This document shows positions 43,001-56,261 of a stretch of 64,000 nt of DNA, in pieces. Where the stretch lies: assembly GCA_012513815.1 (NCBI GenBank), contig JAAZBM010000011.1:186001-250000 (forward strand), written 5' to 3'. The notes below the pieces were generated by a model. The model did no database searches. It was given only the letters and a program-made list of their open reading frames with translations, and was not told the DNA's origin. This stretch comes from Candidatus Sumerlaeota bacterium (GTDB taxonomy: Bacteria; Sumerlaeota; Sumerlaeia; Sumerlaeales; Sumerlaeaceae). The position numbers were made by a program, and so were the translations under genes. Each line of letters opens with the position of its first letter. Positions within the stretch are counted from its first letter, which is position 1.

Positions 43001-45340
43001 CTAGATTGCCGCTGCAATTTCTTCGATGCGATAGTCAGAACTTTGCGTTCCATCAACAGAAGTCGCGGTCACCACATCGCCTTTGTGGGCGCCAAGGAAC
43101 GGCGTCATAAAGGGTGTCTCGTAAGAGATGATGTGTTGTTCCAAATCGCTCTCGAAGCTACCGAGAACAATATACGACTCGATTGCGTCTGTCGAAAGAT
43201 TGCGAGCGGTAAACCGAACGCCAAAGGAAACAGTTGTCGTGTCAACATCTTCAGGATTGAAGATTTTGCATGAGCTCAGACCCATGGACAAAATGTTGAT
43301 TTCGTCCAGAAGCATTCCATGGCGTTCACGTGCGGCATGGTATCCGGCGTTTTCCTTCAAGTCACCCTCAGCGCGTGCCTTAGCGATTTCCTCAGCATTC
43401 TTGGGCAAAGCTTCATTCTGCAAATACGCAAGACGCTCGGACATTTTCTCGCGTCCTTGCTTGGTGCACCAATGCCAACCTTCACCCGCATCGACAGGTG
43501 ACGCTTCGGGCATTGGTTCAGCTTCGCCGGCGTCATGCGCAAGCATCTCGAGGCTTTTCTGGATGGCCTTTTCGGCGCCGACACAGAAAACATTATTAAA
43601 CGCAGGGCAGGCCGCAATGGCGCTACGCAACTGGGCGAGTTGTTCGGAAGGCAGTTCCAGTGTGGCCAAACGAATGGGCATAAAATCAAGTTGTCTGTCC
43701 AAAACTTTCCCGCGTATCTGCAACATCGTGCGCACACGGGCAATCAGCTTCTTCGCTTCTTCGCGTGTTCTACGGTTGACACTCTCTTTGTCAGCCATCA
43801 CAACCCAATCGCCAAGCAAGTTGACCAATTCGATGATAAGTCGACTGGCCGGGATAGCGTCCGCAAGCGCCTTCCAACTGCCTGACAAGATGCAATGAAC
43901 CGCCCAGAGATAAGTATCGGGATTATCAATCGGGCTTGCAAGCAATTGCTGAATCGCGTCAACGGCGCACTCCTCGTTCTTGTCCTTTGTGAGTTCGCGC
44001 CAGATGGCCTGGGCGACTTTTGGCGACGCGTAAGGCAACAACGCGCAAGCAAGTTCGTGGCCTTCCTCGCCATCGCGAGCATAGAGCATATTCAACGCAC
44101 GAACGGAATAATCATAGCTGCTGATATCGGCCAGCAAAGCGTAGTCGTCAATCTTGGCAATAATCGCGGCTGTCGAGCAAGCTTCCGGCAATGTCCCTTT
44201 GGCGCCGATTTGGGCAAGGTCTTCATGCATAAACGCGATTTGCAATTTGTCAATGAGCGATGTCTCGGGTTTCGTCGCAAGAGCCTCGATATGTTTTTGC
44301 ATTTCGAGCGGCAACTCGTCTTCCACCTCGTCGCCCTTCGAGAGACGATCGAGCATATCAAGCAATGCATCGACCATCGTAGAGCAATTCGAGTTGAAGA
44401 ATACTTCTCTAATTTCGTCTGTCAGCGAGCGCGGAGTTGAACGCAAAACCAACGTCGCACGGGCGCCACCGGTGGTGTCGAATTCAATCATCGGGTCTTT
44501 CTGAATCTCAAGTCGTGCCTTTTCCCACCAGCGATTCCACGACTTGGCAGCAACGATTGTGCCCGACACAAAATCCTTCAAATCACTCTGATTGATTGTG
44601 CCGTTGTGTCCTTTCAAAATCATGCGCACAAGCTTCTGAGGGGCCTCTTCCGCAATTTTCTGCAGCTCAGGCAAATCGGTCATGCGGCGGGCAACGATAT
44701 GATCCGGCGCAAAATACTTAAGGAAACTGTTCGCGCCATCAAAGCTAAATTCCTTCTTCATCTTATTGCCGTTTTCGGCATCATCAAACTCGATGACAAT
44801 GCGGCGGGTGTTCATGTCAAAGTCAGTGATAATGCCATCGCCGAACTGATAGTGGCGCCACACCTGTCCGGGAGTCAGTTTGATGTATTCATCGAAACGG
44901 TCAAAAACGACCGACAACTTGGCGCCGTTCAATGACGACGCAACGGAGCGGAACCATGGGTTGGCACCGTAAAGCCCCTTGAGGGCACGACCGGCGAGCG
45001 GACCGAATTTGCCGCATTTGGGCCAAGTCTGAACTGCGAATTTGATGATTTCATACATAAAGGCAAAATCTTTTTTTACCTGTAACTCATTGGCCAACAG
45101 AACAATTAAATCTGTTGTCTTCTCGTCGTCTTGTTTGGCACGATTTTTCAGCCAACGGAAAACTTGAAAATACCAGCTCACGATACGCGGTGGCGTCTGC
45201 GTCAAATCCGTCCATGAGTCTTCGACTCCCGAGCTGTCCCCCTGCTTGGCTGCCTCCCATACGCGAACCCAAATAGACAAGGGTTCCTTTGTGACATCCT
45301 CGAGGGGCATGGCAGGGTCTGACGATTTTGACTGAATCAT
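43001..45340 (-). CDS. greA: Giant GreA-type transcript cleavage factor with long N-terminal extension
   Basis: The last 150 of 779 residues are a complete Gre factor: the coiled-coil segment KARAEGDLKENAGYHAARER has the conserved Asp and Glu of the tip that act in RNA cleavage, followed by the FKBP-like Gre C-terminal domain. The first 620 residues are an extension of helical repeats, and residues about 157-206 (GQVWRHYQFGDGIITDFDMN) resemble the small Tudor-like DUF3553 module of UvrD tails. A long GreA fusion of this kind is known from chlamydiae. It should rescue backtracked RNA polymerase. The ATG at 45340 has AAGGAA upstream and is preferred over a TTG at 45367. tRNA-Asp follows. Confidence 0.88.
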   Translation of the reverse strand: MIQSKSSDPAMPLEDVTKEPLSIWVRVWEAAKQGDSSGVEDSWTDLTQTPPRIVSWYFQVFRWLKNRAKQDDEKTTDLIVLLANELQVKKDFAFMYEIIKFAVQTWPKCGKFGPLAGRALKGLYGANPWFRSVASSLNGAKLSVVFDRFDEYIKLTPGQVWRHYQFGDGIITDFDMNTRRIVIEFDDAENGNKMKKEFSFDGANSFLKYFAPDHIVARRMTDLPELQKIAEEAPQKLVRMILKGHNGTINQSDLKDFVSGTIVAAKSWNRWWEKARLEIQKDPMIEFDTTGGARATLVLRSTPRSLTDEIREVFFNSNCSTMVDALLDMLDRLSKGDEVEDELPLEMQKHIEALATKPETSLIDKLQIAFMHEDLAQIGAKGTLPEACSTAAIIAKIDDYALLADISSYDYSVRALNMLYARDGEEGHELACALLPYASPKVAQAIWRELTKDKNEECAVDAIQQLLASPIDNPDTYLWAVHCILSGSWKALADAIPASRLIIELVNLLGDWVVMADKESVNRRTREEAKKLIARVRTMLQIRGKVLDRQLDFMPIRLATLELPSEQLAQLRSAIAACPAFNNVFCVGAEKAIQKSLEMLAHDAGEAEPMPEASPVDAGEGWHWCTKQGREKMSERLAYLQNEALPKNAEEIAKARAEGDLKENAGYHAARERHGMLLDEINILSMGLSSCKIFNPEDVDTTTVSFGVRFTARNLSTDAIESYIVLGSFESDLEQHIISYETPFMTPFLGAHKGDVVTATSVDGTQSSDYRIEEIAAAI

Positions 45341-45438
45341 CTGAGCAATTTCCTTTTCAACGAACAATAAACTTCAATGTATCAAGTACGCATCAATGGA
45401 AATTGCATTTAGAAAAACAAGTGATAAGCACACAAAAA

Positions 45439-52462: not shown

Positions 52463-54385
52463 TCAAAATTCCTTGATTTCAATTTCCTGCAGTGCCACAC
52501 CTGTAGCACCCTGCGAAGCCAAACGCCCATAGTAGGCGCGGTTGGTGCGGATGGAAAAATCGCTTACTTTACCAACATTGAGATACTGCCGCGGCAAATC
52601 CATCCACTCTGTCTTTTGCGGATGTAAGAACGCACCCTCGAAAATATGTTCGCCGATCTTTATCCCATTCCAGAAGAACTCGACTCTGAGAGGATCAAGA
52701 ATATAGGTCGGCCCGGCGACTGTCAGGCGCAACTTGTACCATGCGTCCTTGTTCAACGTAATCGCCAAACCGGACTCGGGTGGCACTGTCCACCAACCGA
52801 TGGTCGAATCCATCGTGAACCCATACCAGATATACGGATTGGGTTTAGGGCTCAAGTCGATGACTCCGTTTTTGGGCAGCACATAAGTGTCCGGGCTTTC
52901 CGGCCAACCTGCGGTATGCCGTCCGTGCGTGAGCATATGCATCATCAACGGTCGACGCCATTCCCAAGCCTTGCGGCTGTACCAGAACTCATAGCGTTTC
53001 CACATTGCGCTGTTCCACAAATGGCTCTCACGGCTGACGCCCATCCACTGAATGAACGTCGAACTGATTGCAGCCAATAGGAGCACACAACGCATCACGC
53101 GCAGCTTTTTGCGTGACCACTCGGGGTTATCGCCCTCGATGACATTACGCATAAAGGGAGCAATGACCAACATCATGCACGGAATAAAGTCGAGCATATA
53201 ACGGCCGCCGAAGACGTTCCAACCGGCCCAGTTTGGCACCAGACCACGGAAGACAACGCCGATGGTTGTGGCAAGAGCCATGACCGAGAGTTCCGGGTCT
53301 TGATGACGGCGCCGCCAAGCGCCGGGGAGAAGACAAATCCCCAACAGAACCAATGGCGAGAAGATGCACAAGCCAACATTGAACGAGAAGTAAGCGCCTA
53401 ACAATCCAAAGTCGCGCGGGCTGAAAGGATTAATGATTTGCGCGAAACGGATAAGTGAATCGTACCCCAATGCCTTGGACAAGTAGGTACCAAGCAACGT
53501 TCCGCTCTCGTAATAGTTATTGACCATCCACAGCGCCATAAGCAGTATCAAAATGATAAGCGCGACGATACCAAGACGCCAGTTGCGCCGCCACTGGTAA
53601 CCCATCACGACAATAACGATGGTGGCAGCCTGAGGACGACACCAAATCGCAAGCGCGAACAGGAAGGTGGCAATCACTAATCGCAAACCGTGACGGCTCG
53701 CGCCATCGAGAACACACAACCCCATCATGAGCCAAAATAGTTCGCCCGTGTGCTGCCAGAGCTGACGGCTCGACACGCTCCAAACCGCCGTCCCGAAGGC
53801 AAAAAGTAACGCCATCCAGAAGGCGGTGCGACGACCATGCCGACGCACAATCCACGCAAGCATTGCCACCGTCAGCGCGGATAACAAGTTCGCTGCAAAG
53901 CAGTCAAAGAAAACAATGTTGTCCGGGCTCATGTCGAACCCAAGGTAGAGCGCTATTTTAAAGACAATCGCGCCAAGCGCCGCCGTGCCAATAGGCGTAT
54001 GCGAAACGAGATAATCGTTCTCAGTGCGCGAAAAACTGTTGCACGTCGTTATGTCCGGATTGAGAACTTCCCAGTCCACGGCACCTTCGGTCGCAAGCAG
54101 CACCGACCCAAAACGCAAGGGGACGTTATCGTCAAGTCCCTGCACCAGTGGGCGGTATGAGTAGCTGAACAGGCAGATAAGGAAAACAATAATCGGGATA
54201 GGAAGCTTGCCAATATACGCCAACGTAAGTTGCCAGTTTTGCAACAACCAGAGCTTGAAGCGGTTGCCTTCGCGCAAAGCGAGTGCCCGCCCGGAGGCCA
54301 TACGCTCCTGCCACGTCATCTTGACGGGTGCGGCAACAGGAACCGGTTTACGAATCATCTTTTTTGTTTGCTTAGGGAAGCGCAT
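52463..54385 (-). CDS. GT-C-like membrane protein, paralogue of the upstream gene
   Basis: The 640-aa protein has about eleven membrane segments between residues 50 and 430 and a C-terminal beta-rich segment (about 500-640) with VEFFWNGIKIGEHIFEG. The order of blocks (PLVQGLDDNVPLRFGSVLLA; HTPIGTAALGAI; RRHGRRTAFWMALLFAFGTA) closely follows the neighbour at 54372-56261, so the two are duplicates. The start ATG lies inside the last codons of that gene, and the AAGGAGGTGA ribosome site is also inside it. It may be a glycosyltransferase whose tail binds sugar; function is unproven. Confidence 0.65.
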   Translation of the reverse strand: MRFPKQTKKMIRKPVPVAAPVKMTWQERMASGRALALREGNRFKLWLLQNWQLTLAYIGKLPIPIIVFLICLFSYSYRPLVQGLDDNVPLRFGSVLLATEGAVDWEVLNPDITTCNSFSRTENDYLVSHTPIGTAALGAIVFKIALYLGFDMSPDNIVFFDCFAANLLSALTVAMLAWIVRRHGRRTAFWMALLFAFGTAVWSVSSRQLWQHTGELFWLMMGLCVLDGASRHGLRLVIATFLFALAIWCRPQAATIVIVVMGYQWRRNWRLGIVALIILILLMALWMVNNYYESGTLLGTYLSKALGYDSLIRFAQIINPFSPRDFGLLGAYFSFNVGLCIFSPLVLLGICLLPGAWRRRHQDPELSVMALATTIGVVFRGLVPNWAGWNVFGGRYMLDFIPCMMLVIAPFMRNVIEGDNPEWSRKKLRVMRCVLLLAAISSTFIQWMGVSRESHLWNSAMWKRYEFWYSRKAWEWRRPLMMHMLTHGRHTAGWPESPDTYVLPKNGVIDLSPKPNPYIWYGFTMDSTIGWWTVPPESGLAITLNKDAWYKLRLTVAGPTYILDPLRVEFFWNGIKIGEHIFEGAFLHPQKTEWMDLPRQYLNVGKVSDFSIRTNRAYYGRLASQGATGVALQEIEIKEF

Positions 54386-56261
54386 TGGCAGTCACCTCCT
54401 TTTTTTTCTCCAGTTCTTCGTCGGGAGACTGCAAGAAGCGGACACTGTCGAAAACGACGCCCAGTGCTGCCGGCGAATTAATCTGATAAATCGCGCGGCC
54501 AACACGGAACTCCAAGGTATTGATTTTGCCGGGAGTAATATACTTCGACGCGACACGGAACCACGGCGTCTTGTCGAGACCCTCGTGCATCGAAATCGTC
54601 AGCATACGCCCAATCGGATGACCATTCCAGTAGATATCAATGGGTATCGGATAGTACGGATAAGCCTTCGCGTGAACACGCAATTGAAGCTCCAATCCGC
54701 GATTGAGTGATTCGGGCGGAATCAGCCACAAACCGGACACGGTCGGCAGCGCCCACACTTCGTCGGCCAAACGAATGAAACCATAGGCCAAGAACTTACC
54801 GCGAGTCACTTCCCAACGCGATATCGAAAGGCTCTTCGTGTCGAGATAATACTCTTTGGTCGGCAGCGCGACAGCCGACGAACGCCCCTCAGTCGCGACA
54901 TGGCGCAACAGAGGATTCTTCATTTCCCACGCAAGACTCGAACCGTTGCTCTCGCAGAACGTGTGCCAGATAATCCATTCACGCCCCACGCCAAGCATCT
55001 GGATGCCAAGCGCGATGACTACCACGACCATGCTCAATGAGGCGCGCAACGGCGTCTTGATGAAGAAGGCAAACATCGGGGCGGCCGAAAGAATCGCAAT
55101 GGCGGACAGAGGCACAACATAAGGCGAACCGAAACTGTTCAACTGTGACCAGTAGGGACTGGCGGCGAAACTTAACAACATCAGAACGAAAACAAGGAGC
55201 ATCCGCGCTGTCCATTGTGTGGCAAAGTCGTCGAAATGACGACGATGACAAAAACGGACAATCGCGACAATCAACGCAATGAACGCAGGCAGTGCAAAGG
55301 CGAGCATTCCACGATTCGGCGCAATAAGCAGCCCTATCAGGGCCGCGAAGTAATTGTCGGGATGCATCTGCTGAAGTACGACCGGAATATCACGGAAGAA
55401 AAACCACGTTTTCGGCTCGTTCAGGACGGACATATTCATGTGGCACCACAGCGCAAAAACTCCGCAAAGCAACACACTAATGCTCAGCACTCGCAACCAT
55501 GTATAAGACTGTTTGCGCCATGGCAACGCAACCGCCAGCGCCGCAAGACCACACGACGGCATACTGACGAACGCCCACCACAACGCGACATAGCCAAGCA
55601 GACGACGGAACAGTGTCAGTGCTGAACCGGGCGCGGGATAGAGCATATATAACGCGAAGATGATGCAAAAAACGGCGCCTGTCTCGGGCCACAAGCAGCG
55701 GCTGCACATGCTCCAAGCCGGAGTGCAAAAGGCAAACAAGACGGCGATGCACCACGCCGCCCGACGCCCCCACCGAGGACGAACCAAACCCGCGATGAGC
55801 GCGGCACACAGCGCCATCAGTATACTCGCGGCAAATCCCTCGAGCGGAATCACATTCTCGGGAGTTAGGACTAAGCCAAACTGATGCGCCAAATAATAAA
55901 TCGGAAGCGCGAGCCACCCTGTGCCCATCGGGGCATTCGGGCGTGAATGGACCCCGGCAGAAAACACTGTCGCGGGCGAAGGCGCAAGCCATGGAGTCGA
56001 GTCGTTGGGCAAAACTTTCATGTAAGCGAAATCGGCGACCCCATGCAGCGACTTCAGCGCAGGACCATAACGCAATACCATGTTGGACGCGTCGCTCTGG
56101 ACCAACGGCTTGGGAAGGTAGAGCGCAAAAACCACTAATCCGACGAGAATTGCAACGGGTGTCCGCCGTATCAGCGCATAAATCACCCCACATAACCAGC
56201 GCAAGTTTTCGCGCACCGGCAACCATATACTTTTAATTTTATCTTTGTCTATTATCCGCAT
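54372..56261 (-). CDS. GT-C-like membrane protein, first of a paralogous pair
   Basis: The 629-aa protein has about eleven membrane segments and a C-terminal region with IDIYWNGHPIGRMLTISMHE like the paralogue. The N-terminal half has PLVQSDASNMVLRYGPALKS, SRPNAPMGTGWLALPIY and PRWGRRAAWCIAVLFAFCTP in parallel with the paralogue. Its final residues, EKKKEVTANALP, are encoded by the sequence that also forms the ribosome site and start of the next gene; overlap is 14 nt. GT-C function is inferred from topology. It lies 50 nt downstream of uppS, with a short hairpin between. Confidence 0.65.
   Translation of the reverse strand: MRIIDKDKIKSIWLPVRENLRWLCGVIYALIRRTPVAILVGLVVFALYLPKPLVQSDASNMVLRYGPALKSLHGVADFAYMKVLPNDSTPWLAPSPATVFSAGVHSRPNAPMGTGWLALPIYYLAHQFGLVLTPENVIPLEGFAASILMALCAALIAGLVRPRWGRRAAWCIAVLFAFCTPAWSMCSRCLWPETGAVFCIIFALYMLYPAPGSALTLFRRLLGYVALWWAFVSMPSCGLAALAVALPWRKQSYTWLRVLSISVLLCGVFALWCHMNMSVLNEPKTWFFFRDIPVVLQQMHPDNYFAALIGLLIAPNRGMLAFALPAFIALIVAIVRFCHRRHFDDFATQWTARMLLVFVLMLLSFAASPYWSQLNSFGSPYVVPLSAIAILSAAPMFAFFIKTPLRASLSMVVVVIALGIQMLGVGREWIIWHTFCESNGSSLAWEMKNPLLRHVATEGRSSAVALPTKEYYLDTKSLSISRWEVTRGKFLAYGFIRLADEVWALPTVSGLWLIPPESLNRGLELQLRVHAKAYPYYPIPIDIYWNGHPIGRMLTISMHEGLDKTPWFRVASKYITPGKINTLEFRVGRAIYQINSPAALGVVFDSVRFLQSPDEELEKKKEVTANALP

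Follow-up and report, generated by a model that had tools for sequence, protein, structure and literature searches.

Gre factors are textbook transcription proteins that rescue stalled RNA polymerase, and the canonical GreA and GreB consist of a coiled coil with an acidic Asp/Glu tip, and a C-terminal domain. Longer forms are on record as two family models, PRK14720 (NF011309) and PRK06330 (NF004969), the second of which I take to be the model of chlamydial-type GreA fusions; both carry the description 'transcript cleavage factor/unknown domain fusion protein', which treats the extension as unknown and makes no mention of a Tudor part. Tudor-like barrels that bind RNA polymerase occur in CarD, in the RID of Mfd, and in RapA, and CarD pairs its polymerase-binding domain with a DNA-binding domain. 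In the helicases PcrA and UvrD, a Tudor domain forms the C-terminal tail (PF21196; structures 5dma, 7egs, and 6yi2). Residues H681, W684, K712, and L714 of PcrA are required for RNA polymerase binding (PMC5397179), and the domain grips a hairpin of the form [VIL]Dxx-TGE-[VIL], which is found in the SI1 insertion of the beta subunit and in UvrB (PMC8318588), while CarD and Mfd bind beta1 rather than the SI1 hairpin (PMC5397179, PMC8318588).

The window analysed here is a stretch of 64,000 nucleotides from a Candidatus Sumerlaeota genome, and its minus strand encodes a long GreA fusion (Table 1). The open frame covers positions 43001-45367 (788 aa) and starts from a TTG at 45367; the ATG at 45340 was preferred because an AAGGA Shine-Dalgarno sequence lies ~10 nt 5' of it (at about 45351-45355) and because it fits the starts of the homologues. 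Residue numbers returned by the tools refer to the 788-aa TTG form, and subtracting 9 converts them to the 779-aa form. The gene is flanked by a glycosyltransferase gene and an RNA methyltransferase gene, and no conserved gene neighbourhood was seen around the fusion in the handful of loci that were read.

Table 1. Position and supporting evidence of the fusion gene and its parts, in window coordinates.
Feature	Position	Strand	Evidence
GreA fusion gene, 779 aa, ATG start	43001..45340	(-)	ORF, homologue starts, Shine-Dalgarno
N-terminal region of helical repeats, ~7 helices predicted	44882..45277	(-)	AlphaFold2; conserved in homologues
UvrD/PcrA-type Tudor-like barrel, residues ~159-210 of 779	44711..44866	(-)	AlphaFold2, profiles, Foldseek, conservation
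Winged-helix-like domain with W..WW and DP motifs	44444..44674	(-)	Predicted secondary-structure order only; conservation
Alpha-solenoid between winged-helix-like domain and GreA	43532..44425	(-)	AlphaFold2; Foldseek HEAT/ARM-type solenoids
Flexible linker, pLDDT below 50	43481..43525	(-)	AlphaFold2
GreA N-terminal coiled coil	43262..43471	(-)	PF03449 E=1e-19; Foldseek 1grj
Acidic catalytic tip GDLKEN, intact	43349..43366	(-)	Sequence comparison
GreA C-terminal FKBP-like domain	43016..43237	(-)	PF01272 E=1.2e-9

Both Gre families of Pfam matched the window protein well above their cut-offs (GreA_GreB_N with 70.9 bits against 24.5, GreA_GreB with 38.5 bits against 26.9), and both matches were confined to the last ~155 residues. 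This bears out the initial annotation, in which only the last ~150 residues were assigned to a Gre factor with its acidic tip in place. The protein thus has the coiled coil, the acidic tip, and the C-terminal domain in common with canonical GreA and GreB, and differs from them by the extension of ~620 residues that precedes these parts, and by being the sole Gre factor found: its genome, a 1.88 Mb draft that is 66% complete, contained one Gre match.

The fusion is colinear from end to end through the class, as seen in an alignment of 27 sequences whose homologues share 20-39% identity with the window protein. In 32 genomes of the class, one Gre N-domain scored above the cut-off in each, always in a frame that was either of fusion size or truncated by the contig end. 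The fusion would be the main transcript-cleavage factor of the cell, and probably its only one. The window protein alone found no match when used as a query against the genome contigs. A six-sequence alignment of the extension built with close homologues recovered genomes of Candidatus Sumerlaeaceae and BRC1, one of which is 100% identical to a relative from the same family (L023), and this assigns the window to Candidatus Sumerlaeota. The extension alone matched 66 of 386 genomes, 32 of which lie outside the phylum (of about 350 sampled there) and represent 23 families. Nearly all of these outside matches have a Gre domain at their end, a single Gre was found in 28 of the 32 outside genomes, and the GDLxEN pattern of the cleavage tip was present in almost every fusion that was read through. 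In a tree of Gre domains, a branch supported at 99/96 had 52 of 57 fusions to one side of it, and the label changed three times or more across the tree, which argues that the fusion is mostly, but not strictly, of one lineage. A long fused Gre that is annotated only as carrying an unknown domain, and is the sole Gre found in the class, reaches well beyond the phylum.

Two outside genomes, G143 and G279, each have a separate short GreA, which in G143 is adjacent to the fusion, and in a third genome with two Gre proteins (G158) the tip is kept and the fused copy stops without the C-terminal Gre domain. The fusions of G143 (L078) and G279 (L093) retain the helical arm and have, as judged by eye, two tandem Tudor barrels at their start, and their coiled coil has lost the cleavage tip. 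The existence of such tip-less versions with arm and barrels suggests that the helical arm serves some purpose other than cleavage.

The window protein is colinear with both long fusion models, Tudor segment included. PRK14720 matched residues 150-786 (E=6e-57) and PRK06330 residues 148-768 (E=1.5e-45; both in 788-aa numbering), at scores of 193.4 and 156 bits that fall far below the equivalog cut-offs of 714 and 697, and no member of the class reached the PRK14720 cut-off. When the Tudor segments of 28 homologues were searched in isolation, each model matched 21 of them, which places the Tudor part within the wider GreA fusion family, the chlamydial-type model PRK06330 included. The open-access papers searched gave no account of GreA with a Tudor domain, in line with the earlier view that this part is an undescribed feature.

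The full-length AlphaFold2 model had a mean pLDDT of 87.6 and showed a helical extension in which beta structure is limited to a single barrel and some short strands. This barrel, the sole one outside GreA, lies at residues 169-219 (788-aa numbering), and the Tudor segment folded alone gave the same strands in a five-stranded barrel with a pLDDT of 85. A Foldseek search of this barrel against 350,542 PDB chains returned C-terminal domains of UvrD and PcrA at ranks 1-7 (7egs, 7egt, three chains of 9dqs, 5dma, and 6yi2) with probabilities of 0.98-1.00, among them the UvrD domain bound to the RNA polymerase lobe (7egs), and NusG, Spt5, CarD, and Mfd followed in the list. The E-values were only about 0.04, as is expected for a domain of 62 residues, so that rank and probability carry the argument for the fold. 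The window barrel, which carries a five-residue insertion, had no Pfam Tudor match of its own, and the resemblance surfaced in homologues, profiles, and structure. Among 28 isolated homologue barrels, 13 matched PcrA_UvrD_tudor (best 6.7e-5), eight matched DUF3553, three the RapA Tudor, and two the CarD/TRCF RID, and, DUF3553 aside, each of these families takes its name from a protein associated with RNA polymerase. The formal cut-off of PF21196 was missed, with 21.8 bits against 23.9 for the fusion of G012.

A profile of the barrel run against about 2000 ORFs picked fusion proteins and Tudor-type ORFs only (best 1e-5), and a profile-profile comparison with 19 standalone Tudor proteins gave E=1.1e-7, while shuffled and unrelated controls gave 0.07-0.52. 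Chance resemblance was rejected on the grounds of these controls and of the clean pick among the ORFs. The barrel shares its fold, strand order, the motif G..H..WG.G.V...F, and, apart from a lysine that is kept only in part, the binding-face residues with the PcrA/UvrD Tudor, from which it differs in its location inside a GreA protein and in lacking the W709 cage residue; CarD, the Mfd RID, and the RapA Tudor gave weak matches and are less similar than UvrD. Its identity as a Tudor domain of the UvrD/PcrA type is close to certain. The initial annotation had proposed a UvrD-tail-like segment akin to DUF3553, to be judged by a Tudor-like fold and by presence in homologues, and both the fold and the presence were found.

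The remainder of the extension agrees with the helical repeats noted earlier, which AlphaFold2 and Foldseek resolved as an alpha-solenoid. Directly after the barrel, the model has the order helix-strand-helix-helix-strand-strand, and a W..WW motif is conserved there. Neither Pfam nor a PDB sequence search gave a match to this domain, and the name winged-helix-like consequently refers to the order of its secondary structure alone. A Foldseek search with the whole model returned only Gre and generic solenoids.

Mapping the PcrA binding residues onto the fusions showed that the position of H681 is His in 49 of 52 and that of W684 is Trp or Phe in 46 of 52. The K712 equivalent is basic in 41 of 54 fusions, with His or Gln often found at this position, and the L714 equivalent is Met, Phe, Leu, Ile, or Val in 53 of 54. 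His and Trp are thus near-invariant at the positions of the PcrA binding face, distant members included, and the cage residue Trp709 of UvrD is not conserved. On the side of the putative partner, each of the 29 RpoB sequences that could be read had the TGE hairpin (two further ones were truncated), including that of the window's own genome, where it reads IDAETGELI. The motif is widespread across bacterial RpoB (PMC8318588), and its presence is therefore permissive rather than specific to the fusion. In UvrB, a strict pattern for the Tudor-binding motif matched in none of 30 genomes, and a lone loose match came from an outgroup genome. With the motif in RpoB and none in UvrB, the predicted target of the Tudor domain is the beta subunit of RNA polymerase and not UvrB.

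Of the two functions proposed initially, a second polymerase contact can be retained as a prediction on the strength of the conserved binding face and the target motif in RpoB, while a link to repair found no such backing. It is very improbable that GreA is linked to nucleotide excision repair through a Tudor contact with UvrB or joint action with Mfd. The C-terminal domain of UvrD does bind UvrB as well (7egt; PMC8318588), and in G013 a single gene separates the fusion from mfd downstream; however, this was the case in one genome only, no repair gene recurred as a neighbour in the loci read and the flanking genes in the window are the two named above, and UvrB lacked the strict motif in all 30 genomes.

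I consider it probable that a second anchor ties GreA to RNA polymerase, namely the UvrD-type Tudor domain on the beta subunit. The GreA part would enter the secondary channel, where its Asp/Glu tip would, as elsewhere in bacteria, promote the cleavage of backtracked RNA, and the Tudor domain would dock on the TGE hairpin of SI1, an insertion in the beta-subunit lobe; PcrA/UvrD use this very peptide. Solenoid and winged-helix-like domain may bridge both polymerase sites and may also touch DNA. Such an anchor would raise the local concentration of GreA, and a single docking site would be contested by GreA, UvrD/PcrA, and small free-standing Tudor proteins. Cleavage factors may thus dock on RNA polymerase at the site that UvrD helicases use. 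A further, more speculative and rather doubtful idea is that GreA and UvrD/PcrA share the hairpin through homologous Tudor domains, and that in bacteria with the fused GreA this one site decides, for a stalled polymerase, between a backward pull by UvrD and a reset by cleavage through GreA. The fold, the known partner motif, and the single-residue predictions make this unstudied factor directly testable.

A different reading, which appears unlikely, is that the Tudor barrel and the winged-helix-like domain bind DNA (e.g. the upstream or downstream duplex of the elongation complex) and that only the GreA part contacts the polymerase. The order of secondary structure elements after the barrel would suit a DNA-binding domain, and the pairing found in CarD provides a parallel from general knowledge. 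The UvrD Tudor by itself also binds DNA weakly (PMC7585439), but the isolated C-terminal domain of PcrA bound no DNA (PMC5397179), the most conserved residues of the barrel are those that PcrA uses for protein binding, and fold searches lent no support to the winged-helix assignment. It is also quite improbable that the barrel is a structural module within the solenoid and has no outside partner. It is divergent and sits within a continuous helical protein, the window copy carries an insertion, and a few outside members (L076, L087, L093, L094, L100, and L101) have little detectable barrel; yet the His and Trp of the binding face persist in distant members, and the two genomes that lost the cleavage tip still retain Tudor barrels. 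The second anchor on the beta subunit is hence the preferred reading.

Several further observations were made along the way. In G013, the fusion, a gene for a 173-aa protein, and mfd follow one another on one strand (L164, G013:C2:398000-406500). In a genome of the same family as that of the window, the fusion is broken into two frames, one of 293 and one of 519 aa (L069, G004:C77), by a frameshift that is either real or derived from the assembly. The minus strand of the window also holds two overlapping long frames, 52463-54385 (640 aa, without a Pfam match) and 54372-56261 (629 aa). RpoB of the window's own genome is unusually long, with about 2031 aa (L163:581-6673, G000:C7:347080-353172) compared to 1340-1480 in most relatives, and it contains an insert of several hundred residues after the stretch VKHGTYGTVIATRTF, around the position of the known SI2 insertion. 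Finally, many genomes of the class contain short free-standing Tudor proteins of the UvrD type, several of them with acidic tails (L067 at G000:C10:459190-459294, and L032-L051 in relatives), which could compete for the RpoB hairpin.
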